Assembly (NCBI GenBank): GCA_029204225.1
Contig: CM055094.1
Location: forward strand, 23,186,657-23,250,656
Direction of reading: 5' to 3'
DNA from: Diphasiastrum complanatum
Lineage: Eukaryota > Streptophyta > Lycopodiopsida > Lycopodiales > Lycopodiaceae
DNA length: 64,000 bases
Position 1 is the first letter of the stretch. Each line of letters begins with the position of its first letter. Shown piece after piece: positions 7,576-36,254 of the stretch. The notes under the pieces are model-generated. The model saw only the letters and a list, made by a program, of their open reading frames with translations, was not told the DNA's origin and ran no database searches. Made by a program: the position numbers and the translations under genes.

Positions 7576-7605
7576 CCTGAGAGCTGCGATTCAGAATCGC
7601 AATGC

Positions 7606-8609: not shown

Positions 8610-10341
8610 CTACTTCAATATTTCATAGGCGCCATAAGCTCTTGCCCTTCTGCTATAATAGCAAAACTGGCAAAGAATCTGCAAACCTTTGTTAAGAAAA
8701 GAGACTACTGTTTTGTGATTAGTTTGAACTCCCTTTGTGATTGATGTGCTTCAGCTATTGAGTGATACTAACAGAATGCTCTGAAGCTGATCTTAGAAAT
8801 GACTACTGATCTGCACAGCCAACGTATGCTATTCATCTGAAACTTTATAACCTTATACGTGTTTCATGCACTGTAATGGCACTGTAGTCCATAACAAATT
8901 ACAAATCTACATAGTACGAAGGGACAATGAAACATAAACATCTTAGATTTAAAGTTCAAAATTTCAGTACAGAGAACAATCACTGTAACTATAGTGATCA
9001 GCTAGGATACAAAAAAATCTAACAGTACACAAGCCCCTGCATCCACAAGCCACGGCAGGTTTGGCGCAATTCTTGACCATTCCATACTCCGCACCAAAAT
9101 ACTGTGATAGAAAGCCAAAAGAAGAGAAAAATAAGAACCTCAGTTCAAATAAGTTTGCTAACAGCTTGAAATATCTAATAACATTGATATATGATAAATA
9201 TTTGTCTTATCACAGCATCCACAAGATGATGGCCCAAAGAATCATGCCATCATCTTGATTACTTGTTACTAATCCCAAAGACAGTTGGCTTCAACGGATA
9301 TCACAATCTATACATTTTTTCTATTTTGAGGAGAGAGGGAGACGGTAGAATTATCAAGTTGGCTTCTACCAGATGATTTTTGTGCTGCTTAATATTCCAT
9401 CTTATCCTACTGAGTTGGTGATAGTCATTGTGTAACATCTAAATAAGTAACCAAGCATACTTTCACTAAAATACTTTCACTAAAATGATCTTTGACACAT
9501 CCCTTGTTACACACCCATTTGCAAGAATTTCCAAATGATTTTCAGACATGATGGCAATTAAATGCTTACCAATATAAAGCTTGAGATGGTTGAACGAATA
9601 ATAAGGTGTCTCAAAATTGAGTCAAAGGCCTTACGGAAATCCACAAAACAACAATATACCCACTCCCGTCTGGACCTGGCCTCCTCAATAATAGACCTAA
9701 AGGTGAATATATGATCTGAGGTGGAGTAATGAGGTCAGAAACCTGCCTACCCCAAAACATGTAAGCGTTTGATCTCAGCTTCACTACTGACCGCCGTCTG
9801 AAGAATGAGCCATAAACCTTTGCCATAATAATAGTGCATTAGTTTTTTGGTCTCATGGGATCACCTGCCTTATGAATAAGAATGGGATGTATGACATTGA
9901 TACACCAAGAGGTAGGGAAGCCCTAAATCATAGCTTAATTAAAAAGATCAGAAAAGGATGGAAGAGAGTATATCTTTCACATGGATAAGAAGTTCTAATT
10001 CCAAGTCTTCAATATCACAGGCATGACAACTATTAAGGTATTTAATGGATTCAGATATCATGTTGGGAATGAGTAGGTTGAAGGTTGAAGGATAAAGGGC
10101 AGGGTGAGACGGTGATGGGAGAAGTGGTGTCAATAGAATATAGAGACTTTGCGTATTCTACCCAGGTATATAAGTCAGTCCAAGTGGGGGAGCACAAGAG
10201 ACTTTGCGTATTCTACCCAGGTATATAAATCAGTCAACGTGGGAGAAGGAGCATTCATGCCAAAAGGCCCCCAAAGAAGAACTAAAGAAAAAATTAATAA
10301 ACCTTCTCCCTTCTTCGATATCGTAGGCCTTCTTTTTACGG

Positions 10342-10399
<58 letters not shown>

Positions 10400-10717
10400 A
10401 CCTGCCAACATAGGTCAAATTTCCAATAAAGGCAAACAAAAACATTAGCGGACTGAGCCCCTGCAACAGAAAAGTACAAAATCCTCAGGTCTTGAACAGA
10501 TTTTAGGGTAGCAAAGGGAGAAAAAAATGTCTCTTTGTTGATATAGAATAACACCAAACCTATAGAATAATAAAGAGGCATTCTCCCTGACAAGACGACA
10601 TTATTGCTCAAGCAGACTTGCAACCACTCAAAACGAGAATCTGGTATGTTCAAGCAGAGCCCCACATATGCCAATAGAATAAAGAGAAAAACTAACCTCA
10701 ACAGTTCCCCTTCTCAT
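8610..10717 (-). CDS. PQ-loop gene, exons 9-12 (3' exon cluster)
   Basis: This cluster encodes residues 342-420. Exon 9 (10717-10697) is a 21-nt microexon, MRRGTVE, between tacag and gttagt. It joins IPQIWLN to GLSPLMFLF and restores the PQ-loop family sequence. Exon 10 (10460-10402) ends GGCAG with donor gtgctc, again running into a CT microsatellite. Exon 11 (9101-9011) encodes [18 protein letters not shown] and the last-but-one membrane segment. Exon 12 (8678-8610) encodes [22 protein letters not shown] and the stop. Confidence 0.88.
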
Positions 10718-13700: not shown

Positions 13701-15506
13701 TTAATGACCTTCACACTAGGTTCAAAGCTCAAAAATCACAGCAAAAGATGTCACCTTTGCAACAAGAGCAAAACCTTTAGCAACAAGTCTTGCTTTATGC
13801 TTCTCCACCTTATCACTTGCCTAATACTTTGTCCTGTAGATCCACTTGCAACCTATTGGTTGCTTCCCATCAAGTAAGTCCACAAGCTCCCATGTGTCAT
13901 TCTCCATGATGGAGTCATACTCGTCTTGCATGATGGCATTCACCATACATTCACATTATCGGCTTCACAGAATGACTGTGGTTCATGTGACTCCGAATGA
14001 CTGTGGTTCCTGACTCTCTCGCTGCATGGGCTTCCTGTAAGATCTCCTAGCACCTTCCCTGCTACATTTACCTTCCTCCATCACCCCTCTATCTTCCACT
14101 ATTAGCCGATACCACCTTGGTAAGCTCTTGGAAGGGGGTGGTGAAGCTGATGGTGACCATGTATCCTGTTGCACTCCAATCTCCAAGAGCTCTCAAAACT
14201 CTGATGGCCGGTGTGTAGAATGATCCACCCAACCAGTGTTGTGTCGAGCCGTAGTTTATTCAAAGAACCGCAGTTCGAATCGGCCAGGTTCGAACCATTT
14301 TTTGGGTTCAAACCGGAAAAAAAAACTTAAATGTCAAAAAGAAGTGCTTTCTTAGTGTTAATGGGTAACATGTACATTATAATTCGTGATTAATTGATAG
14401 TGAAATTTAAATCTTACCATTAAACATAGCACCCAATCGTAGGTGCCCTCCTCTTGAGTCTATCTGATTCCTATTCTGGGCCAAGGACACATGACTGCCA
14501 TGCAAGGGGTGATTAGTCCCCAAGGTTCCATGAAATGCACTACCCGCAATCACTGCGTGACTCTGAGGATCCTTTAAAGGAGCAGCTACCCTGGAATAGT
14601 TCCTAACAAAGCTATATGGTACTATCCTTCAGTCTACAGTGAGCTCAAGCCTCAGAGGCTGAGACTAGGAGATTATATGCTTTGGGCCAAGTAGGATTTC
14701 GAGCCCATTACCTATTGTCGACCATATCTTCACTCTTCGGGCTCTTATCGAGAAAGCACAGGAAGGAATGTCCTTACTATTGTTTTGTGGACCTCATGAA
14801 AGCCTTTGATTCCATTCCACGTTCCTTGCTCTTTCAGAGACTTCATGACCTTGGCTTCTCCACGAACATCATCCTGGCTGCGATGGCACTTTATGAGAGT
14901 GTTTTGGGTTGTTTTCGGCATGGCAACAATATTTTTTAGCATATTTGGAGCACCATTGGGGTGAAGCAAGGTTGCTCTCTCTCACCATTTCTCTTTGGAT
15001 TATATATTGATGAGTTGGAGAGGGTCATCTCATAATGTGGTGGATCTGGTTGGAAACTAGGTGACATTTTGATTGCCATTCTTCATTACACCAATGATGT
15101 GGTACTAGTCTCTCCGACTATTGATGGCTTACAGCGACAGTTGGATTGCCTACAGAAATTTTTTACCCGCTGGGAATTGGGGGTGGACATGCAATAAGAA
15201 TTAGCATCATGCCATCAAAAGAAAGTGTTCAGCATTGAGGGCGGAATGGGCGCCCTCCCCAATCTGATATTTTATTACAAGGCAAGCAATACATGAAGCC
15301 CCAAGAAGATCCGGGCAGTTCTCAGCTTATACAATGCAAATCTGTCCAGAAATAGTAATCTAACATCAATAATTATCAGCAGCCTGCTTTTGGCCAAGAG
15401 AAGACAAGGATCCCTTCCAAAGCCAAATGCACTCCTATTTATGGTGGAGTAGGGCATGGAACCAAGAGGAGGAGGATGGTGGTTGCATGCAAAAGCTCTC
15501 CTCCTT

Positions 15507-15565
<59 letters not shown>

Positions 15566-18500
15566 AAGCTTTGTTAATGTCTTTTCCATGCCAAAAGGCA
15601 TATAAGACTAATGAAGTGCATGTCAAGTGTGTGGTAACCATGGGAGCGTATAAAACGTCTCCAAAACTGTAATAAAGAAAGCATCTAGTGTTGAAGAGTA
15701 ATGCCTATTTTACCCCTTTTGGCTAAGCATTAGTTAAGTTGTACATAACTCATGGGGCATGTTTTAATTAAATGCATGAGACCCCCTTTTGTAGGTTATG
15801 TAAATTAGTGCAAGTGGCCCACTTGGCCAAGTAGCTCACTCCTATGGTTGACACCTAGACTTTCCATGCATGTAAAGGAGGTGCTTGCCTCACAAGGGAT
15901 TTGGAGGACCCACGCCCTCCTCTCTCTCTCTAGCAATTCATTTCTTCTTGAGACTTTTGAGTTTGTGAGGTGCTCATGCAATTCTCCTTGTGTGTGATAT
16001 TTTCCATAGCCAAGTTTCTCAAGCTTTCATAGTTGATCTAGCATTTGAGTTAAGATACTCCATAGCTAGGTCTTGTAAATCTTCATGGTATCAGAGCAGG
16101 TTGTCTAGCCTGTGAGTCTGTGAGTGAGAGAAACTTCAGTGCTTAGATTCTTGAGAAGATTCTCATCTTCTACAAGCACCTCAATCCTGAAAGAGGGAGC
16201 ATTTGATCTACAGGTGTCAGATCAGGTGGAGTCTTGCACTGTTGGAGAGCTATTGGCAAGGGGAGTGGGATGATCCAAAAACTTTCTAAATCTGGCTAAG
16301 TTTTGGGGAGTCTTTCTGGAGGAGCTTACACAAAAGTAGGGCGCACTTTCTGTAGGGGCTTCTAGTTTCTGTTCCAGTGGGGCCTAGTGCCTGTGCTAGT
16401 GAGGCCACACCAAGTGGCAAAGACAAAAGCAGGAGCTGAAGGGTTGCCTTGAAGTGGCTACATACCCTAGTTTGGGGTTAAACCCTTGTTGCTGGAAGTT
16501 GTTCTTTTCTGATCTTTTTCAGGTTGAGCTTCTGTTTAAGCACAAATTTTAGCATGGCTAGTCTTGGGGAGAGTTTGCTGGGTGAATCTAGCAAACTAGA
16601 TGGCACAAACTACAGAGTGTGGAAGTTCAAGATAGCTAATATCTTGATGGATAAGAATTGCTGGGAGGTCATGACAGGTACATAACATCTGATCCTAAAT
16701 TGAAGGACTACATGAACAGGAGACAGAATGCTCATAGGATAATCAATCTTTCTGTCAAGGACAATATTATTCCTCACATTTGCAATGCAAGGGATGCAGC
16801 TGATGCTTGGACAATTCTGAAGTCTATGTTTGAAACAGTGGATTCAGCCAAGCTGGTGTATTTGCAAAACAGGTTACATACTCTCAAGATGGAAGCAGGT
16901 GCAACAATTGGTGATCATATTACAAAGGTCAAGGACCTAATGGATCAGCTTGCTTCAGTTGGAGAGAAAGTAAGTGACAGGAGTATTGTTCCCATAGTCT
17001 TGAACAGCTTATCATTCAACTATCAAGACTATGTGATGTCCCTTTCTGCTAGGGAGAAACTCCCAACCTTTGGGGAGTTATGTGGTCTTCTTTTACAGGA
17101 GGAGATGAGAAGGAAGAATCTTTCTGAAAGGGAAGATAATCCAAAACTTGCATTTGCTTCTAAGAAGAAGCAAAACTTTCAGAAGAAAGGCAAAGGCAAA
17201 AAGAAGAACTCAAAGCAAAGCTTGGAGCAGCAGGTGTCCAAGTTACAGGTTGGAGAGGAGTCAAGCACCAATTCCTCACCTACACCCAAGAGGAAGGGCA
17301 ACTGCAACTATTGTGGTAAGTATGGGCATTTTGCCTTTGAATGCAGGAAGAAGCAAAGTGATCAGAAGAAGGGAAAGAACCAGCAAGGTCACTTTGTTGA
17401 CAAAGTTGCAGAGGAGGAGCAATCTGGTGTGCTTGAGCTATTCACCACAGCCCTATCATCTGAATCCACATTTGGTGGATGGTACATTGATTCTGGAGCC
17501 TCAAAGCACATGACACCTCATAGAGATTGGTTCAGCACCTATGAGGAGACAGAAGATGGTCAGCATGTTTGCCTTGGAGATAATTCTACACGTATGGTGA
17601 GGGGCAAAGGCACAGTTGCAGTACAGTTGTCATCAGGTGAGGTGAAGGAAATTAAAAGTGTGTTGCATGTACCAGGGTTGACTAAGAACTTGCTATCTGT
17701 TGGTGCCATTACCAAACAGAACATGGTGGTAGAGTTTGATGATTCTAAATGTTTGGTAAAAGACAAAGATCAGAACTTCAAGGTGGTAGCCAAGGGAATG
17801 CAAGAAGGAGGTCTTTACAAGATTTTCACAACCATTCCTAGCCAAGAGGCCTTGTCTGCAAGGGATACTAATTGGGACAAGCTTTGGCACGAGAGATATG
17901 GTCATTTGAGTTATAAAAGTTCGCAAGTTTTGAACAGGCACAAAATGGTAGTAGATCTTCCTAGCATTAAGTCTTCTTCAGATACATGTGAGGCTTGTGC
18001 ATTAGGGAAGCAACAGAGGAAAAAGTTTCCAAAGGAGAAAGCTACCAGGGCCAAGGGCATTCTTGAACTTGTGCATTCAGATTTATGCGGTCCCATGCAA
18101 GTCAAATCAGCAGGGGGGGCATACTATCTCATGACCTTCGTAGATGATTTCTCTCAGAAGGTATGGGTCTATTTTCTGAAACTGAAATCTGAAGCGTTCA
18201 AATACTTCAAACAGTGGAAAGCTATGGTGAAAACCCACACAGGAAAGAGGTTAAAGACTCTCAGGTCAGATAAGGGTGGTGAGTATATTTCTGATGAGTT
18301 CAAAGATCTTTGCAAAACATGTGGGATAAAGAGACAGTTTACTGCTCCACATACACCGCAACAGAACGGCGTGGCTGAGCAGAAAAACAGGTCTATAGTT
18401 GAGTGTGCGAGGAGCATGCTCAAGGCAAAGGGGTTGCCAAATTCCTTTTGGGCGGAAGCGGTAGCAACTGCTGTTTTTCTATTGAATAGAAGTCCAACCA

Positions 18501-21500
18501 AAGCAGTTGAAGGAATCACGCCATAGAAGAGGCATATAGTGGCAACAAGCCCAAAGTGGGCAGCCTTCGAGTATTTGGGTGTACTGCATATGCACATATA
18601 CCAAAGGACTTGCGGAAGAAACTTGATGCAAAATCCGTAAAGTGTGTCTTTCTTGGGTATAGTGAAGGTGAGAAAGCTTATGTGCTATATGATCTCGAAA
18701 ACAGGAGGAAGATCCTAAGTCGAGATGTCGTCTTTGATGAAGAGCATGCACCCAAGATACAGGAGCAGGAGAAGGAAGGAACTACTGAGTTCATACCCTT
18801 GATTGATTCCACGGATGAGGATCCTAGTCAAGAGTCCTGTAAGCCTCAAGTGCAGGAGCAACAACAGGAAATCGAACCTACTAGTTCGACCTCTTTTTGG
18901 CCAAGTACCAGAAGCCGAAGTTGGGGACAAACGGAAGACTAAGACAATACCATGGGATACGTGGTCACCATCCACATCACCTGCTGCTAGGAAGAAGCTA
19001 CCTAGGTGGTATTGGGAAACAATCAAAGAAGGTCAAATGATTGAAGAAGGAGAGAGCAGTGAACAGGGTGTCAGAAGATCTCTTAGGTCTCATGAGAGAC
19101 AAGAGACTAACTTTGCTCTTATGTCCACTATTCTGAATGCAGATGAGCCACAGTTCTTTCACGAAGCCGTGAGAGAAAAGGTATGGCAACATGCCATGCA
19201 AGAGGAGTACGACTCCATTGTCAAGAATGACACATGGGAGCTCACTACATTGCCGAAAGGGAAGCAACCAATAGGTTGCAAGTGGGTCTATAAGACCAAG
19301 TTTCATGCCAATGGAACAGTGGACAAGTACAGGGCAAGGTTGGTGGCGAAAGGCTATGCTCAGCAAGAGGGGCTAGACTATGATGAGACATTCGCACCTG
19401 TTGCTAAGATGACATCTATCAGGACTGTTTTGGCTATAGCCTCATATTTTGATTGGGATGTCCATCAAATGGATGTCAAGAGTGCCTTTCTTAATGGGCA
19501 CCTACAGGAGGAGGTTTACATGGAACAACCGCAAGGATTTGAAATAACAGGCAAGGAGAATCTGGTTTGCAGGCTTAGAAAAGCCTTGTATGGGCTCAAA
19601 CAGGCGCCAAGGGCTTGGTATAGCCGAATTGATGAGTACTTTGCAAGGCAAGGGTTTGAGAAGAGTAAGTCTGATTGCAATCTTTATGTCTTCAGGGAAG
19701 GAGAAGACTTTGTGGTTGTTGTGCTCTATGTGGATGATCTACTCATCACGGGAAGCAATAAGAAGCTTATTGCTTGTGTTAAGAAGAATCTTTCTAATGA
19801 GTTTGAGATGAAAGATTTGGGTTTGCTACACTATTGCCTAGGAGTTGAAGTTTGGAAAGGGGAGCGTTAACTTTTTATATATCATTAGATAAGGCTTAGT
19901 AACTTTTATCTTAACTTTTGTTTCAGCCTAGATAAAAAGTTAACGCTCCCCTAAACCAACGACCAGATAGCTGATATTTTTACTAAACCACTTAGTAAAG
20001 ATAAGTTTGAAAAGTTCAGAACTTTGTTGGGTGTCAGTTTGAATAAAATTGCCATTAAGGGGGGGTGTTGAAGAGTAATGCCTATTTTACCCCTTTTGGC
20101 TAAGCATTAGTTAAGTTGTACATAACTCATGGGGCATGTTTTAATTAAATGCATGAGACCCCCTTTTGTAAGTTATGTAAATTAGTGCAAGTGGCCCACT
20201 TGGCCAAGTAGCTCACTCCTATGGTTGACACCTAGACTTTCCATGCATGTAAAGGAGGTGCTTGCCTCACAAGGGATTTGGAGGACCCACGCCCTCCTCT
20301 CTCTCTCTAGCAATTCATTTCTTCTTGAGACTTTTGAGTTTGTGAGGTGCTCATGCAATTCTCCTTGTGTGTGATATTTTCCATAGCCAAGTTTCTCAAG
20401 CTTTCATAGTTGATCTAGCATTTGAGTTAAGATACTCCATAGCTAGGTCTTGTAAATCTTCATCTAGTACAAAATAAATTAGACACATATGTGAGTGTGT
20501 CTGTGCATAATAATCATATGTATCGAGATGTCAAGACTGTGTTGTGCTGCTGCTGCTCCTCCTGCTGTAAAAGGATGTAATGTGAGCCACAGCATGAGAA
20601 GACACTGGAGCCTGTCGGCGTCGTCTATGAGCATTTCATTCTAGGAGTAAGCACATTGAACTGAAGTATCATTTTTTCATAAGAAAAGTTCTCAATGAAG
20701 AGGTCAGATTGTAGTACTATAGAACGCAAGATATGACAGCAGATATTTTTACTAAAGCATTAAGTTTGGAAGCACACAGAAGGATAGTAACGTGATAGTA
20801 ACGTGATGGTGAGAAGTACGTTGTCTCTAATCTCTGTGAGAATGCGAGCGGCTATCATCAACATCATCGTCATAATCCTCGTCCTCATGCGCTAAGTCAC
20901 GCGATCTCCGCCTAGTAAAGAATGAAGTGATCAGTGGCTATGCGGTAAAATGCTGGGGTGTCCCGTATAAATCTCTCTGTAGGATGAACATCTCACGTAC
21001 CATCAGAGCGACACATCATGGGTCCTTGTAGGCAAGAAGAGAGCGTAGAGTGGTAGGCATGTCTCAAAACAGGCAATGATATCGTCCTCTGAATTCATAG
21101 TATACAGGGCATCTAAAGATAAAGTGCTCCTCAGACTCCACCTCACCTAGAGAGCATAACTGCCAAATACGCTCCTCTCTAGAACCTCCCTGCCTCAATA
21201 GCTAGCTGATGAGAGGATACCTTGAGCTGTCCTAGTGTGAATCGAGACAATGTGATAGTCCCGAATCTAAATAGTGTGGCATGACTGGTGTCCCTGATGC
21301 ATCCAGCTCCATGGAACAGAAGGCTTCGCTCGAATCAACCGGGCTAGCATGGTGGTCTGTAGTCGTGAAAGACTGGCCCAGTGTGAAGAGGGGAGACCCG
21401 TACACCATGCCTCTGCCGCATATAGAGCCGTGCAGGTGACAATGGTATTAAAAAGGTGACACTTACTACGAGCATCCTGGATGGACTTCCGGAAACAGAA

Positions 21501-23586: not shown

Positions 23587-23642
<56 letters not shown>

Positions 23643-26600
23643 CTACTTGTCTCACCAGCCATTAGGTGAAGGTACATTGAATTTAGACACCTGAATTGTT
23701 TAAGAAACGCTGCCTTTAAAGCATTCCAAGTATTAACCGTTTCGGGAACCAACTGACTATACCAGATTCTCGCCTGCTTACGCAGAAGACGTAGTAGGAT
23801 TCTAACCTTATCCTCATCAGTGTTTTCCTTATTGGCTATAGTAATCAACTCAAACTATGATAAATAGCTATCCGCATCATCAGATGATGACTAATTGGCC
23901 CTATGACCATAGTTGAGCTTCAAAGGCTCAATCCTATAGATGCATATCTTTAATCGTTATATGTAGACACTGCCAAGGGTAAATGCTTAACCCAATCAGT
24001 CCGCATAACACCAACATAAGCATGACTTCCAAGATTTGGTTGACCCCCTCTTTCTGGCCATCTATCTAAAGGACGCTCAGCAATACTGATCCGAAAATGT
24101 GTTCCTAGCTTGGTGAACGCCTATGTCAAGAGATTTTCCTTAAAACTTAGAATCCCTGTCACACATTATGGACTTCATAGCTAGTCTGACCACAATGCAC
24201 ATTTCAAATATAAAGCTCAGCCACTTGCGAAGTTTGAACATTGCAATGAAATGAGCCATCTTGCAGAGCCTATCTACTAGCACCATAATGGAAATAAACC
24301 TAGCTAGGGTCCTACGCAAAGTCGCAAACCTAAAATAAAATCCACCAAGATGCTTTCCCACCTTCTTATAGATATCTTAAGTGGATGTATGAAGCTCAGA
24401 GGACTACTCTCTCAGCCTTGTTCACCTACCAAGGTATGCAACATCGGATGTATTGTTTTACATCTTATTGCAGTCGTGGCCAAAATAATGTCATCTCACT
24501 AGCTCATTGTTCTTTAAGTTGCGTCGAAACGATGTTCTATAGGTGGAGCATTCTGAAACTGTGGAACACCTTGTTAGGAGAATTGCAAACTAGGAGCACC
24601 AATAGGTTTCAAAATCTAGGGAATTTTATTGTGCACAGCACATCTATGTCAAATCAGTCCCTCCCTATCATGCTTTCTCAGTGATATCTAGGGAAAAGCT
24701 TGCGTGTTAAAAATCTAGTGCGTTGAGGATGTCAGAATTTGTCCTACAAATTCTAGATCAAGATAACTAGTCCTACTAGCACTCAAATATCAAGATCAAA
24801 ATAGAGATTAAAAAGAATTCATATTAGAGAAGAATTCAGCAAAGCTCTAAAACATTGGAATGAAATTGTGGTGGGGCGCCAGCCTACATAAATACTTTCT
24901 CTAATCCATGTGAAAAGCTAAAACCATAAATCAAATAGCTAAAGACAAAAAGCTAATTGCTATTATTACTACCTATTTTGGGTAATGACCCAAGATGTAT
25001 TTCTAAGTAGTAAAACCAAATCCTATTCTAGTAGTAGTGCTCCCACCAACATGCATGACTACAAAACGACTTACTATAAATAGTACTGGCCCCTATAATA
25101 GCACGCAAGCATGGCCAAACTAACACTAAGGGGTACCAAATAAACATTAGTTCCTAACACTCCCCCTTAATGTTTACTTTGTTATCTATTACTCCTAGAA
25201 ATTCTTTAAACTTCTGAAACTTTTCTTTGCCAAGTCCTTTGGTAAAGATATCCACAACTTGCTCGTCCCTAGGGCAATAGATAAGCTCCACTTCACCGAA
25301 ATCTTCTCTCTGATGAAGTGTTGTTGTACTTCAATATGCTTTTTCCTGCTGTGAAAAACTAGATTCACCGCCAATTTCATACAACTCTGATTATCACACT
25401 AAAGTACCGTAGGTGCATGACAAGCCCGATACTCTTCCTCTGTAGATGATAATGCAATAGTATGCTGCTTCTTTGAACTCCAAGAAAAAGCACCAGAACC
25501 AAGACTAAAAACATAACCTATAGTAGATCTTCGGTCTTCCGCATCTCCAGCCCAATCAGCATCCACATGTCTTCCATAGCGAATACCAAACCTCAATGTA
25601 CCCTAGATATATCTGAGTACTCGCTTAGCAGCTCTCCAATAAACTTGCTTAGGCGTAGCCATAAACTGACTAACTATCCTAACAACATAAGCAATATTTG
25701 GTCCCGTAGTAGTTAGGTAGATTAAGCTTTCAACAAGCTTTCTATATAACGTCTCATCTACATCTTGATCCTCCTTAGCTTTGGTAAGCTTACATCCACT
25801 ATCATATAGCGTAGAAATAAGCTTGCACTCTGACATATTGAACTTTTCAAAAAGTTCATGAGCATACTTAGATTGAGAAATAAATAGCCCCTGTGCTACT
25901 TTGCATACCTCAATCCCAAGAAAGTATTGTAGTGAACCAAGATCTTTCATGTCGAATTTTGATGAGAGATATTTCTTGATACCCTGAATCACATCATGAT
26001 TTGATCCTGTAAGAACAAGGTCATCCACATGCACCACTACAATCACAATATGACCATCCTTGATCAAAACATAAAGTGTAGGCTCCGAACTACTCCTTTG
26101 AAAACTGAGCTCCTCAAAGTATGCCAATCCTTGTGTACCACGCCCTGGGTGCCTACTTAAGTCCATATAGTGCCTTATCCAACTTGCAAACCTTGTCTTC
26201 ATGTCATGCCCATGTAGACATCCTCCTCTATATATCCATTTAGGAATGCACTCTTACCATCCATTTGTTGAATATCCCATCCAAACTAAGTTGCCAATGA
26301 TAAAACTATCCTCATAGTAGTTGACTTAGCAACTGGTGCAAACGTTTCTTCATAGTCAATCCCTTCATGTTCAACATAACCTTTTGACACCAATCTTGCC
26401 TTATGTTTGTCTATAGAACCATAGGATGCTACAAAATGTGCTCCTAATTATATTTTCTAAGTCTCCAAGTCTTGTTCTTCATGATTGAGTCGTACTCCTC
26501 ATCCATAGCTGTCCACCAAATGTCCTCTTTCCTTGGTTTCCATTATTGTGGCCATATATGCAAAGCGTACATCTCCATCCTCATGATGATCCTCTTGTCG

Positions 26601-29600
26601 ATCTTGACCTACATGTTGCTTTTCAAGTCTAGCTGATATCCTAGTTCCTTGTGTACTCCATGGACTCTCCCTATTCCATAATGACACTATCCTTGATAGT
26701 TTCATAGTACCATCTAGCAATCTTCTAGTTTCTGATGTAGGATGCTTCCTATCTAGTGAAGTAGGACGTGAATAAGTATCCCATGTACTTGATCTCTCCT
26801 TCCTTTTTCCTTTTTCATCAATGGTCACTCTAGGTACTTGGATTGGAGTAGACGACATATGTGTCGATTCGGGCTCCTGTAATGACTCGTCACACAAGAT
26901 AGAAATTCCTCCATCGTGCTTCCTATCATAAGGTATCTTTGTATCTTTATGAGATCCATCCTCATCAAAGATCACATCCCAGCTTATGATGACTTTTTTA
27001 CCCTCCAAGACATAAAACTTGTATCCCTTTACTTGACTATCATATCCAAGGAATAAACACTTGGTCACCATGGAATCCAATTTGCTCCTAGAATCCTTAG
27101 GTATGTGAGCATAAGCAATACATCCAAACACTCTCAAATGACTTACAAGTTACATCTAGTTTCCGACCCATGTAAGCTTCCTCTAGAGTCCAATTCTCTA
27201 CAACCTTTGTACAACTTCGATTCAAAAGATAAACCGCCGTTTTAACTGCTTCATGACATTCTTACTTTTGAGCATACTCCTCGCAGTTTTCACTATAGAC
27301 TGGTTCTTCCTTTCCGCAACTCCATTTTGTTGAGGCGTGTCCAAGCTTGCAAATTGTTTCTTTATACCATGATCCTTGCAAAACACCTAACATTCCGTAG
27401 AAAGATACTCTCCCCCTTCGTCTGAGCGAAGTATCTTGATTTGTTTATTTGTTTCTTTCTCCACCTATGTCTTAAGCCATGTGAAACACTTCAATGCTTC
27501 ACCCTTATTCTTGAGAAGATAAATCCATGTCTTTCTGGAATAGTCATAAACAAACACCATGAAGTAACTTGCTCCCCCGTAAGACTGAGTTCTCATAGGA
27601 CCACACAAATTTGTATGAACAAAACGTTCTAGAACATTTCTCGCCCTAAATGTACTTGTCGGAAATTTCTTCATACGATGTTTTCCTAAGACACATCCCT
27701 CACAAACCTTGTGATCAAAAACAACTTGAGGAAAACTTGTAACCATATTGTATTTCCTCAAGACTTGTAGACTTTTGTAATTTAGATGCCCAAACCTCTC
27801 GTGCCATAACTACTCACTGATCAAATATCGGCAACACTCGCATGATGTCCCACCATCTGAGCCTGAAGTTTGTACAAACTTCCTGCAAATATGCCCTCAG
27901 CTACTACTTCATTGTCCTTTCTTGATGAGGCACCACTCTTCATCAAACTGCACCACCATGTGTTGCTTTGCAATAGCTGATATTGAAAGTAAATTTTTCT
28001 TGATTCCTGGTACATAAAGCACGTCCTTTATGTCTCCAATCTCCTCTAAAGGTAGTTGAACCTATACTTTTCCAACTCCTTTTATATCATATGCGTAGTT
28101 GTTATTGTAGAATGAATGATGCTAGGAAACAGACATGCAAGAAGATTTAAGCAACATGCAAGCGCATGCAACAACATACAAGAGCATGCACTGACCATGC
28201 AAGGGTTAGGAAAAAACCAGCAAGCTGTGGATCATAGATTTGATCCTAGTTCAATCTGTATGAACTCTACGCTATGCCTATTAGATGAATCAAGAATAGA
28301 AATGATCTCTACTTGCTGGCCAATACAATTAGTAGTGGCAGATCTGCAAAACTAGATTCTTGTTGACCTCTAATTGACTTCAAGTCATAAGTAAATGATA
28401 GTGCCTATGTAATAGAAACCATATGCCACTAATTACATCCAATTTTGACAATTCCTTAGAGAGAAATGAAAGATTAAACAAATTGAACCAGCGCCCTCTT
28501 ACAAATGGTTTATGGCTGTCCTGGCTCCAGATTTGCATGAATTGGAAGCAGAAATGGTGTGAATAGTAGCGCCCTCCACCAAGGATCAGCTTGCAATTAT
28601 TCTCATCTGATTTGGATGAGCGATGAGGGAGAAACAATTGAAAATCAAGATCTGTCCAGCAACGACTTCCTACACCAAAAATGGATCAAGACGACGCATA
28701 AACAAAGAAAATGGAAGAGTTACAAACTCTATCTCTCTCCTGCAGGTTGATTTCTTCTATTAAATACAATTGGTGAATGTACAACGGCTTGGCATGCAAT
28801 TGCCAAGTGTTCCATTTCTCATGCATGCATTTTGCATGTTGCATGCGTCATATGTGCATGGGGAAGAATAAGTTAGTCTGTTTTGCAAGAAGACTCTCAA
28901 GAAGAGGAGTCTCGGTTATGCAAACAAGTGGGTCCTCGTAAAGAGGAAACTGTTTTTTCTTCCATACAGGAAGAAACCTTCATGACTTGCATGCAGGAAG
29001 ATCCTCAGCAGGAGGAGTTGCAAGTTGTCATCATGCAAGAGATTTCTCGGGATTAGAAATCAAATTTCAATGAAGTTGTTTGCTGCCCATATCAGCCAAT
29101 TGCTTTCCCTCTATCAGATCTTGGTAAAGAAAGATTTGAGAAAGGTTTGGAGTGAAGATGATGGTTTACATGGCATAGAGAGTAATGGTTTAGGGTTTAG
29201 GGTTAGCTTGGTTGAGAGCGAAAGCTTGGAGCGTGCATCAGTGACTGTCTCAAAGAAGTGAATGCTCACCAGAGGATTTGGGAGAAGTGAATGCTCACCA
29301 GAAGAGTGACGAGCTCTCAGGACCACAAGTTTCTAGGAGAAATGAATGCTCACCAGAAGAGTGACAAGCTCTCAAGACAGGGAACCACAAGGACCTACAC
29401 ACTACTATGTCTTATATGATGAGATCGGTTTTCCCCCAGATGAACTTCAACAGCTTAGTAATTACTTATGCAAAACTGTGCCATTCACTACAGGGAACCA
29501 CAAGACCTACACACTACTATGTCTTGGTTGATGAGATCAGTTTCTCCCCGATGTTGGGATTCGGTGTCATTCCCGTCACAACAGAGAGAAGTGAGCGGGG

Positions 29601-32600
29601 AATCCTCGGTACATGAAACTACGTCTATCAGTTTAGGACAAATTGGGATCTGTCTTTTGCGGAAGCGATTTTGGGTACGTTTATTAGAACGACAGATTGA
29701 GCAGTGCTATCAATCACATGATACAGTTTAATCTACGAATAACTTTGTCTGCGAGCATGAATCTATCCAACAATGAAAACAAATAACTATTCAGCATACA
29801 CAACTTAAATTCCTGAAACATTGACAGATTAGTCGTGTAGAAAATACAGTCTGAATGCAGATAGAGAGGCGTTCTTCCTGAGACAATACTCTGTGATAAC
29901 AGAGAGAAAGAACAAGACAATTGCACTCTCAGCAGATAGAGAATTCAGCTAACCGAACAACTGATAAGTTGTTGGATATATACACATGGCTAACTAATTA
30001 AACGAATGGTTAATCCGTGGTTTACAAAATAGGTTAAACCACTACATGCTGTTGGCAGTCGTCGTCGGACGATATTTGATTTTGTCCGGTCGTGACGTGT
30101 ACTTGTTGGTACGCTGATAGTTGGATTGCGGCCGATTGTTCGAGATAGGCCAAATGAGTGAATGTGCCCAAATGGTCCAGGATGACCGACCAATCGGGTA
30201 TGGCCGAACGATTGATGATGGCCGAGTAAGAGAAGGTGGCCGACCAAGAAGAGGTGGCCGAACTATCGGGTAACACTGTCACCAATTCATTTGTATTTCT
30301 GCAGAGTATGCGACTGTATATTTGGAACAGCTTAATGGATCTAGATTAGCAGAGAATAGGGATGGAGAGGTTAGAAATCCAACACCCCCACTTAATCTGG
30401 ATCTTGGAATGCCTTATGATCAAATTTAAGATAGCACAAAAATTCTTGTGTCCTTCTTGATTCAACCCTTTTGTAATGTACTGGGTTCTGCAAAAGTTCA
30501 GACTTACCTCTTTGTTGAGTATCTTGCTCCTGATGTAGTGATACCTAATCTCGATGTGCTTGCTCCTAGAATGAAATCTAGGATTGATTGACAATGCAAT
30601 AGCACTCTGATTGTCGCACTGTATCATTGTTGGAGCAGATTGTCTGATACCAATGTCAAACAGTAAATTTCTCAACCAGATTGCCTCTTTGGTAGCTTGA
30701 GAGGCTGCAATGTATTCTGATTCTGTAGATGACATTGCGATGGAGGTTTGCTTTCGACTGTTCCAAGATATTGGACCATTGTTAAAAAGAAAGACGTATC
30801 CAGAAGTCGATTTTCTGGCGTCAATATCACCTGCCCAATTTGCATCTGTATATCCATGAAGAGTATGAATCTCCATCACCATAGCAGATACAAAGGTCTG
30901 TAATGGCTCGTACATATCTGATTACTCTGATAAGAGCTTTCCAGTGCATCATACCAGGATTGGTCATGTATTGGCTCAAGAAACTAATGGCGTATGCAAG
31001 ATCTGGCCTGGTCGAGATCATTGCATATATGGATCTGATAATAGATTGATATGGATACCCCTTCATTTCGGCCTTCTCTGCATCTGTCTGAGGGCATTGT
31101 TCCTTTGATAGCTTAAGACCTGGATCCATGGGATTATGTACGGGCTTGCAATTCACGAAATTGAATTTCGTCAGCAGATTATAAAAGTACCTCTACTAGG
31201 TGATTTAGAGAAGTCGTTTGTTTCTGTCTCTGTGGATTTGAATCTTGAGACAATAATGAATATACATTACAGTTTGCAGAGCTAGGTTGGAATCCATGAT
31301 CGATCAAGAATGTGTTGATTCGATGAAACCATGCTCTGGATGATTGTTTCAGACCGTACAAAGCTTTGTGGAGTTTGCATACCTAGTCTTTTCGACCATT
31401 GAGGATATAACCTTCTGGCTGGATCATATAGATGTCCTCCTCAATAACTCCATTGAGGAATGTCGTTTGTACATCCATCTGTTGTACCTCAAGGTTTGTT
31501 GTAGCAGCATAAGAAAGTAGCAGCCGAATAGAGGTATGCTTGACGATTGGGCTGAAGGTTTCGAAGTAGTCGATATTGGGGATTTGTAAAAACCCCCTTG
31601 CCATGAGTCGAGCTTTCCTTCTATTGATTTGATCTTGAAGATCCATTTGCAGTCAAAAATCTTTCTGTTTGCTCGCAGGTCGGTGACAGTCCACGTGTTG
31701 TTCCTCAGCAGTGAGTTGTACTGTTTGTCCATTGCTTCTTTCCAGAGATCTGAACCGGACTGTGATAAAGCTTCCTCAACTGTGGTTAGCTCCTGAATGG
31801 AATAGTGAGCGAACTCGTCAGTGTATCGGACAGGCTGAGTTTGAACTCTTGTTGATCTTTGGATGAAGTTTCGGGCTGCGAAATTCGACCTTGTGTTGGC
31901 TGAGTCGGCTGCTCCTGAGTTGCAACTTCTTCTTCTTCTTCTGGATCTGACTGTATTTGGTGACTACAGGAAGAAATAGAAATTGTCTTCCGAGAAGAGT
32001 CAGTTGTCGGGGCAGAAATTGTAGATTGAATGAATCTTGTCCTTGCCCTTCAGATCAATAAATTAATCTTCTATGAAAGTCACATCCCTGTTAGTAAAAA
32101 CTTTACAAGTGTCTAAATTATACAGTCTATACATTCCGTCAAAAGTACCATAGCCAACAAAATTAGTTTTAAGAGAATGCTCATCAAGTTTCTTTATGTT
32201 GTCCTTTGGGACATGAGCATATGCTGTGCATCCGAATACTCTCAAATGTTTTATTAAAGGTTTGAATCCTGTCCCATCAAAAATCAAAAAAAAATGTTTG
32301 AGAAACGTTGGCCCAAACCAGAAATGCATTTCTGACCACGCTTCCAAAAACGTTGGGAAACATAGTTGCAACAAGTCATGCCTTGCTGGGTTTCGGGTTT
32401 CGCTGCAGCGAATCGAAAAAAAAAAAAAAGTTAGCCTGAAGCAAATATTTTTTGACCTCAAATGTAATGGAATTGGAGTTATAATAACTTGAATTGAACC
32501 TTAAACTACAAGAAACGCATATATATAATAGGTCCAATTCGAGTATATTTCAGTATATTATGGGTCAATTCAGTGTATTGTAGTACACAGATAAACCGGA

Positions 32601-32933
32601 GACGCATTTACTCTTAATCCTCTACGCTTTCTCTTTCTACTAATACCATATTAAATGCATTTACAAAAAAAAATTGCGATTCGTGGCTGCAACTATGATA
32701 CATATATCGTGCACGGTGTCTTGTGGGTACACCAAAGCAATGGATAAGATAGAACAGAATTCAACCATCGTAGTTTACATAAGAGGGACACCTCACATTC
32801 ATCGGAAAACAAAATCTACCAATAGGTCTGAACAGTATAAAGACAGGTGGGATGCACTACGAAGTGCCATGGACAAAAAAAAAAACTTAGAAGAGAAAAA
32901 AGTGCAAGGCAAAGCAAGGAGCTGCGTGCGTGC

Positions 32934-32972
<39 letters not shown>

Positions 32973-32974
32973 CG

Positions 32975-33038
<64 letters not shown>

Positions 33039-36000
33039 TTAACCATATTTGAGGAATCCTGCCACCCATATAAATAGCTGCCATAAGCCATCCAAATAAC
33101 TCCCCAATAGCACTTCCTGAACCATTTTCTTGGAAATTTAAGCGAAAGAGGCCTCTTTTTGATTCATGAAGTTCCTGTCAAGAAATCAACTTGCAATAAA
33201 CAACATGTTTCAGCTTCGGATAGGCTACAGGCTTCACGATTGAAAACTTAATGAAAGGATAAATTCCAAGCAATCATGTGTTTCAGACAGTATACTGGCT
33301 CAATTTCTCCATCAGCACCTGTAAGAACTTTCTTGCTCCCAAAACTAAAAACTTTGCACCAGACGCACTTTTATCGCCAATATAGTAATCTCTTGGACCA
33401 ATGGAACTTCCGAAACGTAAGCCCAAACCCCCAATGCAAAGAAAACTTGATGCTGCCTGATCAAACGATTGAAGATCACATTATGCAGAATTCAGCAAGT
33501 GTCAGCAGATTCACATTTAAGGGTATACACAAAGAAAGGGATACTAATGACTCATGAGAAATGTGAATTCTTCTGCAAATCAAAGACTGGAGACAATATC
33601 TTCCTGTCTGCATGGTGACTCTTTGTTCAGGACCAATGAATCTATATCTATTATAGTGAAGACTAGAGTCCTTATCTTCATGTTTTTATGGTAGCTTTTG
33701 TTCAGGACCAAAAAATCTATTGTACTGAATGGCCAACATAAGAAACCTTACTGTTTGAACTAATGCTGAATTAGGATTTCCAGTGGGAGTGGGAGTGGAG
33801 CGAGGCACATCCATGTGACGTGTCCTAGGGGAAGAATTTCTCAGCATTCCATGACCTGCAGAGCCACGTGACCCAGACAAGATTGAACCAGCAGTAGGTG
33901 TATGACTACTTGCGAGTGATCTTGCTGAACTGCATAAACAATTCCCACAGAAACTTAGGCAGAGTACATTCGTATTACTCTTTGAAGTTATCAATCCTGC
34001 TAAATAAGCACATAATGAAAAGTTAAACATTGGTTAAGATGCAAATGATTGTGCGCATTTGTACAGTAAAACACTAACTTGTGTAAATCATTTGGGAAAC
34101 GTACTACTAACTTTCACATAGCGAAGAAGCTTCGATGCTTACGTGTAATACCACTCTCTGCCTTGCACACTTTGTCGGGGTGTTGGCACCCCAATTCCTG
34201 ACATTGGCCGACTTGCGACAGGTGTCCCTTGTTGCTCCTCTGGTCTTTCTGGTATGGTTAAGGGTTTTGATGCCAACTCATCCTCAATGGGTTTCTGGAG
34301 GCATCCAATTATACAAGCTTTGTTAAGATAATCAATTTTAAAGGACTTGTATGCTGCATACTTACCAGACAACAACGTATATCAATGTGGCGTATGTAAA
34401 CAAGAAACTAACTATAATCAAAAATGCATAAATAACATACTGAGTACAAACGGAGACACACAAATGCATGGACCATAGCAATAAATTGAAACGGACATGG
34501 ACACTACAGGACTAAGTTCCAGCTGCTCACTGGAGGAATTCAAAAAGAGTATAATCTCTTTTCCATGAGTCCGGTGAACTATCATTGCCAGTGGCCACAA
34601 AAGGTATCAGGCTGAGATTGAGATGAGTAAAACTACAAGATGAAATAAATGCGTACAAATTTGAAAAAGCTTTCAAGGAAACAAACACAAAGTGAATGCA
34701 ATCTAAGCTCTTAACTCACAGCAATGATCTTTATCACAACGTTTATAATTGACTTCAGAAAATAACAACTCGTTCAAGACATCTTTATATAGCAGATTTA
34801 AAAATCAAAAAAGTAGATGACATTCACCAATTCAAGTACGAGATGGCAAACAATGGTACCAAGACAAAAGTATAACCCTCGGAACTCTCACCTTTCTAAC
34901 AAAGATCAAAAAAAGGCAGCTTAAATTATACGCCTTACAATCTAAGAATCTAACCTTCCTTGAAGAGATACCATTTCCAGAAGCCAAAATTTCATTCGAT
35001 GTTTTAGGGCAAAAACAAGGAATCGGATAGTGTGAATCTATCCACTTGAAAGTGAATTAAGTTAAAAACGGGATCTATAACATGACGCATCATAAGTCTG
35101 CCGTAATGACAAATTCCAGTTTGGAAGAAATTATTGATTACATACTGTACGGAAAATATGCATGTTACAGGGCCTATACGTATGCAGCGATACTGGGGTT
35201 AATAATCCTCAAAATTCCCCACAACGCATTTGGAGGGCAAAACAGAATAAGCAGTAGAAGGTTAAAGACTTGGAGAGGTTACCTGTGGCATAAAGGCTTC
35301 TTCTAGAACCTCGTCTTTACATTTCCACCGTTTGCACATATAGTCGTAATACACAACTTGGCCGAGCAAAATTACCGTTGTGATTGTGTAAAGCTGTTAA
35401 CAGTCAACCCTTAATATAAAGATATCACTAGTCCGGAGCAGGAGCAGTAAAGAACATAGCACGACATTATTTCATACAAAAGACGAGACTGCATCAAGTT
35501 ACAACTTACTTCTGATAGACAATGGAGCTTACCAAAGCCATGTAGAACTGCGTCGGTAGCTGGTCCAAAGCGAAAGAAACAAGATGAGGAACAAAATCAG
35601 CAAAAATGTTTCGATACAGCATGAGACATACAGCACGAAAAGAAAGACCATGAATAAAGCAAGATAATAATCCAATCAACAAATGAAGATTTGTTACGGC
35701 TGTCTGCTGATTTTTCATGAGCCAAAAAAGAAAACGAGTTACAAAGGAGCAATCAAGTGGAAAGGAAGCTAAATATCAGCGAAGTTCGTGAAGAGTTGTG
35801 ATTACAGTTGCAGGCTCCAGGTAGCAACCAACTAGATTGAACATATCCCTGTAAATTTGTCATGTCAGCAACAAGTACATGTTAGATGGTATAGAACAGT
35901 TTTGCATTTAAAGCTGCCTCAATACCAAAAAGATTACAATCGGTTTCCAATTATCGTATGATTACGCTCTAATAAGGATTTTCCAACTAAATACAAAAGA

Positions 36001-36254
36001 TACAATGGCTTTTCGCACCCGATCAGCCATGTCATCAAAAATGTGAGCGATATGCCCTCTGTCGACTTTTCCTTGCAATGTGTTATTATCTGCGGCACCT
36101 CTGCTACTCCCCAACTAAGAACACTCAAGAGTCCGAGAACAAACGAAACCTTGTCTCTGGTGGTGCACACGCAATCCTTAAGGTATCTCCGCGCCCATTC
36201 CAGGCACTTTCCGTCGGAGGGACACTCGGGCAAGGGTCCACTCAGCAAAGCCAT
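8610..36254 (-). CDS. PQ-loop repeat membrane protein (SLC66/PQLC2/Ypq-like), 12 coding exons
   Basis: Exons on the minus strand are 36254-36019, 35848-35806, 35559-35533, 35393-35283, 34294-34143, 33929-33752, 33456-33319, 33174-33037, 10717-10697, 10460-10402, 9101-9011 and 8678-8610. All introns are GT-AG and all phases agree, giving 420 residues. The protein has the two PQ-loop motifs of the family: [11 protein letters not shown] (P54/Q55) with [20 protein letters not shown], and [11 protein letters not shown] (P336/Q337) with [15 protein letters not shown]. The rest gives seven likely membrane segments, with a serine/proline-rich linker at about 150-290 and [15 protein letters not shown] near the end. 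Plant relatives and human PQLC2/yeast Ypq export cationic amino acids from lysosome or vacuole; that role is inferred by family. The start was chosen because [20 protein letters not shown] matches the family N-terminus. Exon 7 (AASSFL...ARKFLQ) is the least conserved and least certain. Confidence 0.9.
9600..10340 (-). mobile_element. LINE-C fragment (RT N-terminus) inside PQ-loop intron 10
   Basis: On the minus strand the sequence gives a LINE-like [14 protein letters not shown] block repeated at about 10145 and 10200, then [11 protein letters not shown] and VSDLITPPQ, and at the end a DFRKAFDS-like block close to 9610. It lies sense to the host gene, between exons 10 and 11, and is broken by frameshifts. 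Confidence 0.7.
10344..10399 (+). repeat. (GA)n microsatellite abutting the exon 10 splice donor
   Basis: About 27 GA units on plus are CT on the gene strand. The run starts three bases into intron 10, since the donor reads gtgctctctct. Confidence 0.95.
11485..11640. mobile_element. TTCGAATC-palindrome insert (MITE-like)
   Basis: After ATATAGTTGC there is a cluster of GCCGATTCACGAGTC, GATTCGAATCAG and CCAATTCGAATCGGGCC words, similar in style to 7787-7991. Ends and target duplication were not found. Confidence 0.4.
11641..13690. other. Unrecognised AT-rich intronic DNA
   Basis: No known domain, RNA gene or repeat boundary was recognised. Short open frames (for example 13055-13339) lack support. 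Confidence 0.5.
13700..14185 (-). mobile_element. Ty1-copia pol fragment
   Basis: On the minus strand the reading gives [20 protein letters not shown], then [28 protein letters not shown] and KARLVAKGF. This is the integrase-RT linker and RT N-terminus, with stops and frame changes. It is closest in this window to the plus-strand element at 15689-20462 ([20 protein letters not shown]). Confidence 0.8.
14225..14330. mobile_element. GTTCGAATCGG insert (MITE-like)
   Basis: CAGTGTTGTGTCGAGCCG is followed by AGTTCGAATCGGCC, GGTTCGAACC and GGTTCAAACCGG, then an A run. It has the same style as the blocks at 7787 and 11485. Ends are not defined. Confidence 0.4.
14600..15215 (+). mobile_element. LINE-D fragment (reverse transcriptase)
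   Basis: The plus-strand reading gives [55 protein letters not shown], then [17 protein letters not shown] and a degraded YADD region ([10 protein letters not shown]) before it fades at about 15215. Stops are present. It lies antisense to the PQ-loop gene, in intron 8. Confidence 0.85.
15509..15690 (-). mobile_element. LINE 3' UTR and tail with (CT)n, minus strand
   Basis: The minus strand reads GACATTAACAAAGCTTTC and then a CT run (GA on plus at 15509-15566), which matches the LINE-A tail GACGTTAATAAAGCTTTC followed by CT. The preceding GCCTTTTGGCATGGAAAA also resembles the LINE-A UTR. The copia element at 15689 inserted at its upstream edge. It may be the displaced 3' end of LINE-F. Confidence 0.65.
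15689..16085 (+). repeat. 5' LTR of the complete copia element
   Basis: 397 bp, TG...CA ends, repeated at 20066-20462. An internal CTCTCTCTC tract lies near 15920. Confidence 0.95.
16086..16100 (+). other. Primer binding site (initiator-Met tRNA)
   Basis: TGGTATCAGAGCAGG starts at the first base after the LTR, as in plant copia elements. Confidence 0.9.
16554..20050 (+). pseudogene. Copia gag-pol pseudogene
   Basis: Gag starts at ATG 16554 ([20 protein letters not shown]). The reading shifts near 16680 (a TAA after ATGACAGGTACA), stays open to 18525, shifts at ACGCCATAGAAGAG (about 18523) and again in a T run near 18892, and ends at 19869. Order: gag; zinc knuckle [14 protein letters not shown] (near 17300); protease [11 protein letters not shown] (near 17482); integrase zinc region ([14 protein letters not shown]); DDE core with [23 protein letters not shown] and [12 protein letters not shown] with [19 protein letters not shown] and catalytic YVDDLLITG (near 19728). 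The RNase H domain is absent, apart from the terminal [20 protein letters not shown] (near 19970-20030). It cannot make a full polyprotein. Confidence 0.92.
19859..19951. mobile_element. 93-bp foldback sequence replacing the copia RNase H region
   Basis: The ends are perfect inverted repeats, GGGGAGCGTTAACTTTTTAT on the left and its complement on the right. The element sits between RT (GVEVWK) and the tail of RNase H (DQIADIF). About 800 nt of normal copia coding is missing at the same place. Flanks are GGAAA and TAAAC; no clear target duplication is visible. Confidence 0.75.
20066..20462 (+). repeat. 3' LTR of the complete copia element
   Basis: 397 bp, identical by eye to the 5' LTR except at 20171. 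It is preceded by the polypurine tract and followed by the TCTAG duplication. Confidence 0.95.
20620..20800 (+). mobile_element. Copia RNase H remnant
   Basis: The plus-strand reading gives [21 protein letters not shown] and [11 protein letters not shown], the usual end of copia RNase H. No LTR is visible next to it. Confidence 0.8.
22304..23107 (-). CDS. LINE-F ORF1 protein, intact reading frame
   Basis: A 267-residue open frame begins [20 protein letters not shown]. The proline/alanine-rich N-terminus is about 85 residues. It is followed by a coiled coil ([20 protein letters not shown], then [16 protein letters not shown]) and an RNA-binding-like C-terminus ([49 protein letters not shown]). 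The same order is seen in LINE-B ORF1. Such proteins coat LINE RNA. The frame stops right before the deletion junction, so it could still be expressed; there is no evidence that it is. Confidence 0.7.
   Translation of the reverse strand: MPTHDAEMATLPAEVAPPHATQTEQSAYVATYPVRSCPPIPLFSAHPLPDSVPILPTPISASSSSLPAPQFTASTPYTPSKSTELFSSWQTDQIKADFKILRQEQLKGTVTSLINEKNLLQSKVASLEQSIGIKQAATSEFTTNMIRELETRIEKQQEEARSWASVLKKGTKPSAPISSVISATTSEEKSRDHKAHNIRVRGIPDTQDALAEARRFLDTTLGHKIDGLDTAWRTTRDGATLIIRFTSLESRRDARRCRAMRYHYLYG
23110..23588 (-). repeat. GC-rich 5' region of LINE-F with short tandem words
   Basis: The region is rich in GGCAGATCAG / GGTAGGGGGG words on plus (about 23110-23390), then CAGCAGG(GT)GTCA words (23440-23560). 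It probably represents the degenerate LINE-F 5' UTR. Overlapping open frames are compositional. Confidence 0.5.
23589..23638 (+). repeat. (GA)n microsatellite
   Basis: A GA run lies at the 5' border of LINE-F, on the edge of the gypsy gag fragment. Confidence 0.95.
23640..23900 (-). mobile_element. Ty3-gypsy gag fragment
   Basis: The minus reading gives [20 protein letters not shown] and [15 protein letters not shown], the tryptophan-containing retrotransposon gag pattern. It starts [12 protein letters not shown] and breaks into the GA run. Confidence 0.75.
23930..24370 (-). mobile_element. Ty3-gypsy integrase fragment
   Basis: The minus reading gives [20 protein letters not shown] and [11 protein letters not shown], then after a frameshift [19 protein letters not shown] and [10 protein letters not shown]. 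This matches the gypsy integrase core (VDRL...AHF, SDRD.KF, PQTDGQTER, DWVK.LP). Frameshifts and stops are present. Confidence 0.8.
24371..24704. other. Unrecognised segment between gypsy and copia relics
   Basis: No domain or repeat was recognised; one short open frame (24385-24684) has no support. Confidence 0.4.
24705..25159 (-). repeat. LTR of the minus-strand copia (3' LTR)
   Basis: On minus it begins TGTTAGGAACTAATG right after the purine tract ATTAAGGGGGAG (25160 on), and appears to end GATTTTTAACA at 24705. The far end was chosen on the TG...CA rule only. Confidence 0.65.
24705..28110 (-). mobile_element. Ty1-copia element, 5' truncated (integrase to 3' LTR)
   Basis: On minus, from right to left: GAG-pre-integrase (about 28015-27765), integrase ([37 protein letters not shown]), the linker with [15 protein letters not shown] (27130), RT ([15 protein letters not shown] near 26030, then [14 protein letters not shown]) and RNase H ([19 protein letters not shown] near 25560; [16 protein letters not shown] near 25340). 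Gag, protease and the 5' LTR are missing. Stops and frameshifts are spread throughout. The RT motif is HVDD instead of YVDD. It lies sense to the PQ-loop gene. Confidence 0.88.
28111..29275. other. Unrecognised intronic segment
   Basis: It begins where copia homology ends. It holds CATGCAA-rich words (28130-28200, 28790-28860, 28980-29035) and a GGTTTAGGGTTTAGGGTTAG telomere-like piece at 29188. No coding domain was recognised. Confidence 0.4.
29276..29552 (+). repeat. Second copy of the 112-bp repeat family
   Basis: This matches the reverse complement of 7290-7575, including GGGAACCACAAGACCTACAC at an internal period of 111-112 bp. It stops exactly where the copia LTR starts (29553), so the LTR element inserted into it. 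Confidence 0.8.
29553..30384 (-). repeat. 3' LTR of the minus-strand copia at 29.5-32.3 kb
   Basis: It begins TGTTGGATTT and ends GAATCCCAACA on minus. It is homologous to 41606-42440 (ACAGAGTATTGT, GACGACTAAT-type blocks in the same order). Confidence 0.85.
29553..32270 (-). mobile_element. Ty1-copia element, 5' truncated, with 832-bp 3' LTR
   Basis: On minus: the integrase tail/linker ([20 protein letters not shown] near 32240), RT ([20 protein letters not shown] near 31600, [14 protein letters not shown] near 31350), then RNase H ([19 protein letters not shown] near 30850, [20 protein letters not shown] near 30530), the purine tract AAGTGGGGG, and an LTR that begins TGTTGGATTT. The RT catalytic block is lost between about 31190 and 31280. 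The reading frame is broken several times. Confidence 0.9.
32271..32450. mobile_element. A-rich insert with GTTTCGGGTTTCGC words at the copia break
   Basis: The block has A runs at both sides, AACGTTGG..CCAA words, CATAGTTGC, then GGGTTTCGGGTTTCGCTGCAG and AGCGAATCG. It stands where copia coding stops and resembles the other palindromic-word inserts in this window. Ends are not defined. Confidence 0.35.
32451..32924. other. Intron 8 sequence next to exon 8, no feature
   Basis: AT-rich sequence without recognised coding or repeats. Confidence 0.4.
32925..33035 (+). repeat. Compound (GCGT)n(GT)n(GA)n microsatellite at the exon 8 donor
   Basis: GCGT and GT units (32925-32968), a short GCGT return, then GA to 33035. 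On the gene strand the CT run starts right after the donor GT. Confidence 0.95.
33037..36254 (-). CDS. PQ-loop gene, exons 1-8 (5' exon cluster)
   Basis: This cluster encodes residues 1-341. Introns 1-7 are short (about 130-990 nt) with mostly standard donors: exon 3 ends TTG before gtaagc, exon 5 ends in phase 2 before gtaagc, and exon 6 ends CAAACA before gtaagg. Exon 1 ends in a less usual gtgcga donor. Exon 3 is only 27 nt (LPTQFYMAL). Exon 8 ends IPQIWLN, with donor gtctct that belongs to a CT microsatellite on this strand. Confidence 0.88.

Follow-up and report, generated by a model that had tools for sequence, protein, structure and literature searches.

In the DNA analysed here, two blocks of minus-strand exons separated by more than 22 kb very probably belong to a single gene, a 27.6-kb unit that would be transcribed from the minus strand, lose its eighth intron by splicing and yield a product with two PQ-loop repeats. 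Intron 8 appears to have grown roughly 10-20 fold relative to paralogues through retrotransposons, one of which is recent. The window, by which we mean the whole stretch of 64,000 bases (C3:23186657-23250656 of the 1.74 Gb assembly used for comparison), contains no N.

Read from 36254 down to 8610, 12 minus-strand exons rebuilt from the sequence join in phase into 1,263 coding bases, that is, 420 residues and a stop, and all 11 introns have GT..AG ends. The sequence-only reading had joined eight exons at 33-36 kb and four at 8.6-10.7 kb into one 420-residue frame, and our reconstruction arrived at the same frame; the 22.3-kb intron that it had placed between the two blocks measures 22,319 bp (33036-10718), 81% of the 27,645-bp gene span. 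In protein and CDS searches of the window (tblastn and blastn), all matches outside the exons had E values of 0.3 or worse. The exons and the large intron are as follows.

36019-36254, minus strand: exon 1, with the ATG at 36254
35806-35848, minus strand: exon 2
35533-35559, minus strand: exon 3 (27 nt)
35283-35393, minus strand: exon 4
34143-34294, minus strand: exon 5
33752-33929, minus strand: exon 6
33319-33456, minus strand: exon 7
33037-33174, minus strand: exon 8, with PQIWLN at its end, covering PQ-loop profile positions 1-24; boundary common to all three paralogues
10718-33036, minus strand: intron 8
10697-10717, minus strand: exon 9, a 21-nt microexon encoding MRRGTVE (ITRETVE or ITRKTVE in paralogues)
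10402-10460, minus strand: exon 10 (59 nt, as in all three paralogues)
9011-9101, minus strand: exon 11 (91 nt, followed by gtatcc, likewise in all three paralogues)
8610-8678, minus strand: exon 12, including the stop codon

Flanked by AG and GT, the exon 9 motif has a single occurrence in the sense strand of 33036-10400, and 300 dinucleotide shuffles gave none (0.07 occurrences per shuffle when the AG and GT are not required), the pattern having been composed with the exon already known. Elsewhere in the window, imperfect repeats of about 42 bp lie at 36671-37118, 0.4-0.9 kb upstream of the start codon, and a gene for a cyclophilin-type peptidyl-prolyl isomerase lies on the same strand, with two coding pieces recognized by Pfam (47653-47877 and 49336-49608).

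The joined protein matches the PQ-loop family PF04193 (E 3e-36, 123.4 bits, cut-off 22) in two stretches, each a PQ-loop repeat, which bears out the family assignment that the sequence-only reading had made for the joined exons. The better stretch, residues 318-374, spans the join at residues 341/342, and the second repeat is thus cut by intron 8. Exons 8-9 together extend the coverage of the profile to positions 1-31, and exons 10-12 correspond to positions 32-59 of 61, abutting the piece from exons 8-9. When joined, exons 8-12 score 66.0 bits, compared with 24.3 for exon 8 alone, 29.2 for exons 9-12, and 20.5 for exons 10-12 alone, which is under the Pfam cut-off of 22.

By its sequence, the product is predicted to be a membrane protein of the PQ-loop family, PQLC2/Ypq-like by resemblance. 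Two PQ motifs separated by a long interval are described both for plant PQL clade 1 (AtPQL1a-c and HvPQL1; accessible part of PMC7876507) and for Ypq1-3 and PQLC2 of yeast and mammals (accessible part of PMC4649669), and PF04193 is likewise found twice here. Plant clade 1 proteins co-localised with a tonoplast marker and facilitated monovalent cation transport in heterologous systems, according to the same part of PMC7876507, in whose main text, to the extent accessible, the words exon and intron are absent. Judging from its family, the protein may transport cations or basic amino acids across the vacuolar membrane. A PDB search with the protein returned four cystinosin sequences only, none significant (E 0.24-0.73), and a search for relatives in IMG/VR gave six pattern matches, none of them confirmed.

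The paralogues in the same assembly provide a second line of evidence. Among the best-scored candidates there is a single full match to the exon 11-12 stretch, and there are five partial matches to exon 11 at 74-76%, three on C2 and two on C993. Around the three C2 matches we located paralogues A, B and C, related PQ-loop genes that lie clustered and in both orientations within about 175 kb (C2:33.878-34.053 Mb). In all three, the exon 8 donor falls at the same codon (AAT/GTATG, with the slash marking the exon boundary), exon 9 has 21 nt (ITRKTVE in A, ITRETVE in B and C), exon 10 has 59 nt, and gtatcc follows the 91st base of exon 11, as in the window gene; for exon 11 the length of 91 nt was imposed and the donor then found at its end. 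The three paralogues lack the RRG of exon 9, and a strict pattern with G at the fourth residue gave no match. Over exons 9-11, the window gene and each paralogue are identical at 40 of 57 residues, with dN of 0.19-0.20, dS of 1.05-1.21 and dN/dS of 0.16-0.18, where dS is high and the estimate of selection integrates all time since the paralogue split, not just the time since intron growth. The paralogues are mutually similar and hence not independent, and B and C, in which the 30 kb fetched for each held no exons before residue 188, may be partial; for these two, the 3′ exons alone serve as evidence.

Intron 8 measures 1,487 bp in A, 2,235 bp in B and 1,057 bp in C. Because the boundaries of the paralogues match those of the window gene while their intron 8 spans only 1,057-2,235 bp, the four genes share their exon architecture, and only in the window gene is intron 8 large. 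The continuity of the profile across the intron, the boundaries common to three of three paralogues, the dN/dS in exons 9-11 and the one full copy of exons 11-12 among the best-scored candidates all support the claim, made in the sequence-only reading, that this is one gene.

The content of intron 8 probably explains its size: its 22,319 bp contain transposable-element domains, compared with the much shorter intron in the three paralogues. The elements are as follows.

13766-14192, minus strand: copia fragment (13766-13998 is 71.5% identical, inverted, to 19130-19361; the remainder was assigned by eye, and frame 13986-14192 has no Pfam match)
14606-15190, plus strand: LINE reverse transcriptase fragment (RVT_1, E 1e-4, 22.5 bits, under the cut-off of 29.6; DNA similarity to 5690-6061)
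15689-20462, plus strand: copia element, antisense to the gene and coding-defective (LTRs at 15689-16085 and 20066-20462; TCTAG at 15684-15688 and 20463-20467)
21703-23140, minus strand: LINE fragment (RVT_1, 4e-13 for 21771-22100; the part at 22307-23140 was assigned by eye from its likeness to frame 2911-3669, with no LINE family in Pfam)
23555-23854, minus strand: retrotransposon gag fragment (Retrotrans_gag, 2e-5, 25.1 bits, cut-off 24.1)
25198-28027, minus strand: copia fragment in several frames (Pfam support for 25606-27809; ends by eye)
29312-29550, no strand assigned: unclassified repeat, 90% identical, inverted, to 7359-7585
30349-32500, minus strand: copia fragment (Pfam matches RVT_2 at 31386-31652 and SH3 within 32066-32500, and no Pfam family for frames 30349-31192 and 31427-31963; 30440-30854 recurs inverted at 41148-41577 with 82% identity)

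The copia element at 15689-20462 has 397-bp LTRs that are identical at 396 of 397 positions, TG..CA ends and a 5-bp target duplication (TCTAG), and its gag, integrase, SH3 and RT domains follow the Ty1/copia order gag-integrase-RT. A motif after the 5′ LTR is presumably its primer site. The sequence-only reading had called this element complete, which is correct for its structure, as the LTR pair, the TG..CA ends and the TCTAG on both sides attest, but not for its coding capacity. It has no single intact frame, as the SH3 stretch is out of frame with both gag/integrase and RT; the RT match ends at position 209 of 244, the end of the RT frame is 195 nt from the 3′ LTR, and no one intact frame through RT and RNase H was found within the element. 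The LTR is abundant in the assembly, with 1,689 first-look candidates, of which 40 were scored and were each at least 98% identical (both LTRs of the element included). The near-identity of the LTR pair points to a recent insertion: by hand arithmetic and with wide error, one change in 397 corresponds to about 0.8 million years at a rate of 1.51e-9 per year, as given in the accessible part of PMC8626473.

Beside this element, intron 8 contains six fragments with class evidence, five oriented like the gene and one opposite, and the one unclassified repeat. The earlier count of at least eight other elements was not reproduced, although their presence in both orientations stands. The LINE fragment at 21703-23140 contains a 165-bp tandem duplication (21785-22097) whose copies are 99% identical.

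A second contig, C3059 (45,956 bp), is colinear with window positions 29310-64000 apart from insertions, is 99.6% identical over its first 10 kb, and presumably represents the other haplotype. All eight of exons 1-8 are identical in the two sequences, the GT of the exon 8 donor is present in both, and intron 8 differs, over its first 3.7 kb, by five substitutions and two indels (1 and 18 nt). C3059 begins inside intron 8 and so covers exons 1-8, not the far join to exons 9-12. About 1.3 kb of C3059 (28007-29333) is missing from the window between positions 56664 and 56665, and a further insertion of about 0.65 kb lies at C3059:20388-21044, near window position 49700.

Exon anatomy, domain continuity, boundaries shared with paralogues and transposable-element content are thus direct observations, and the sequence best supports ordinary transcription through, followed by removal of, one very long intron. 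On this account, the 27.6-kb unit would be transcribed from the minus strand straight through intron 8, which retrotransposon insertions would have enlarged about 10-20 fold against the paralogues. Splicing would then link the donor AAT/GT(CT)n to the 21-nt exon 9, giving a product that would carry two PQ-loop repeats and putatively function in transport. Because intron 8 contains five gene-oriented transposable-element fragments and eight sense AATAAA hexamers, early polyadenylation is possible. IBM2 is required in rice and Arabidopsis to keep genes with heterochromatin in their introns from being polyadenylated prematurely there (accessible part of PMC7145194). In its sequence, the window gene resembles these IBM2-dependent genes in having an intron with transposable elements inside the gene, and by analogy an IBM2-type mechanism might protect it from premature polyadenylation. 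In Arabidopsis, introns upstream of very small exons (at most 15 nt in that study) tend toward late splicing (accessible part of PMC8831610).

The donor of exon 8 is unusual, a point that the sequence-only reading did not raise. It reads AAT/GTCTCT, and more generally AAT/GT(CT)n, where a CT array that continues directly from the GT occupies donor positions +3 to +6. A similar array adjoins the donor of exon 10.

32978-33035, minus strand: CT array following directly on the GT with which intron 8 begins (CT tract of 56 nt here, 46 nt in C3059)
10344-10398, minus strand: CT array starting at the fourth base of intron 10

The gene has five CT/GA arrays of at least 16 nt, two of them no more than five bases from a donor; random placement in intron sequence put two there in 2.5e-5 of 200,000 draws, in a test that is post hoc and that counts one interrupted array as two of the five.

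The alternative that survives best, though we consider it unlikely, is that splicing of intron 8 mostly fails and the main transcript ends within the intron, encoding exons 1-8 and a 49-residue SL/HT-rich tail (stop at 32889-32887) and missing most of the second PQ-loop. The U1 pairing of the exon 8 donor, with a duplex energy of +0.7, is the weakest of the 11 (the others range from -1.3 to -8.0), and the GTATG of the paralogues reaches -1.9, which favours such a failure; yet -1.9 is itself weak by the same measure, and the exon 11 donor, TTT/GTATCC, is also weak (-1.3) and nevertheless has its GTATCC kept at the same place in the paralogues. With a donor matrix, the exon 8 donor ranks tenth of 11, above that of exon 11, and 733 of the 1,150 GTs in intron 8 score equally well or better. 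There is no other GT between this donor and the first in-frame stop, 147 nt downstream, so that, in this gene model, the full-length protein requires the exon 8 donor; this GT-free stretch and the unequal length of the CT tract in the two contigs also speak for failure. Against it, exons 9-12 are free of stops and frame breaks, and all their acceptors are AG. The rival transcripts are compatible with the main reading, as both kinds may coexist.

A more elaborate proposal is that a growing CT microsatellite has invaded the 5′ splice site of the longest intron in a conserved gene, so that the length of the array would set the proportion of full-length product and premature product with one PQ-loop, a heritable tuning knob coupled to a 22-kb intron filled with transposable elements. 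We regard this as speculative and doubtful. In a limited literature search, we found no on-point report of a CT repeat at a plant donor site.

Skipping of exon 9 is improbable. Both joins are phase 0, so that splicing of exon 8 to exon 10 would give 413 residues, and the 21-nt exon keeps the frame whether included or not, which favours skipping. However, removing exon 9 from exons 8-12 lowers the PF04193 score from 66.0 to 37.7 bits, a loss of 28, and all three paralogues have a 21-nt exon in this position. An assembly artefact in which the exon blocks or the intron filler were misjoined is very improbable: the single full copy of exons 11-12 among the best-scored candidates leaves no second contig for that side, but the window has no N, the intronic copia element has matching target duplications, and C3059 carries exon 8 with 3.7 kb of the adjoining intron.

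Very long introns of this sort have precedents in other plants. Grapevine has 2,697 introns of 3-100 kb that consist of more than 80% repeats, including copia elements and LTR pairs of high identity (accessible part of PMC3058033), and the window gene resembles them in having a copia element with a high-identity LTR pair in a large intron. The large introns of grapevine are mostly 5′ introns in the 39 genes compared there, whereas here the intron is number 8 of 11. In the same accessible text, 99 EST clusters match consecutive annotated genes, that is, split gene models, the kind of error that the sequence-only reading had thought probable for standard gene finders here. Chloranthus has 876 genes longer than 20 kb, compared with two in Oryza and none in Arabidopsis; Chloranthus and magnoliids are rich in long genes, and LTR elements are the major contributor in Chloranthus (accessible part of PMC8626473).

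The swollen intron thus illustrates well a phenomenon that is already known and is commonplace in large plant genomes; its odd detail is a donor partly overwritten by a CT repeat. For annotation it is a clean case, as gene models can readily miss a 21-nt exon on the far side of a 22-kb intron, and the protein then lacks most of its second PQ-loop. The CT array, present at the donor in two lengths, offers a natural test of the effect of a microsatellite on the splicing of a long intron.
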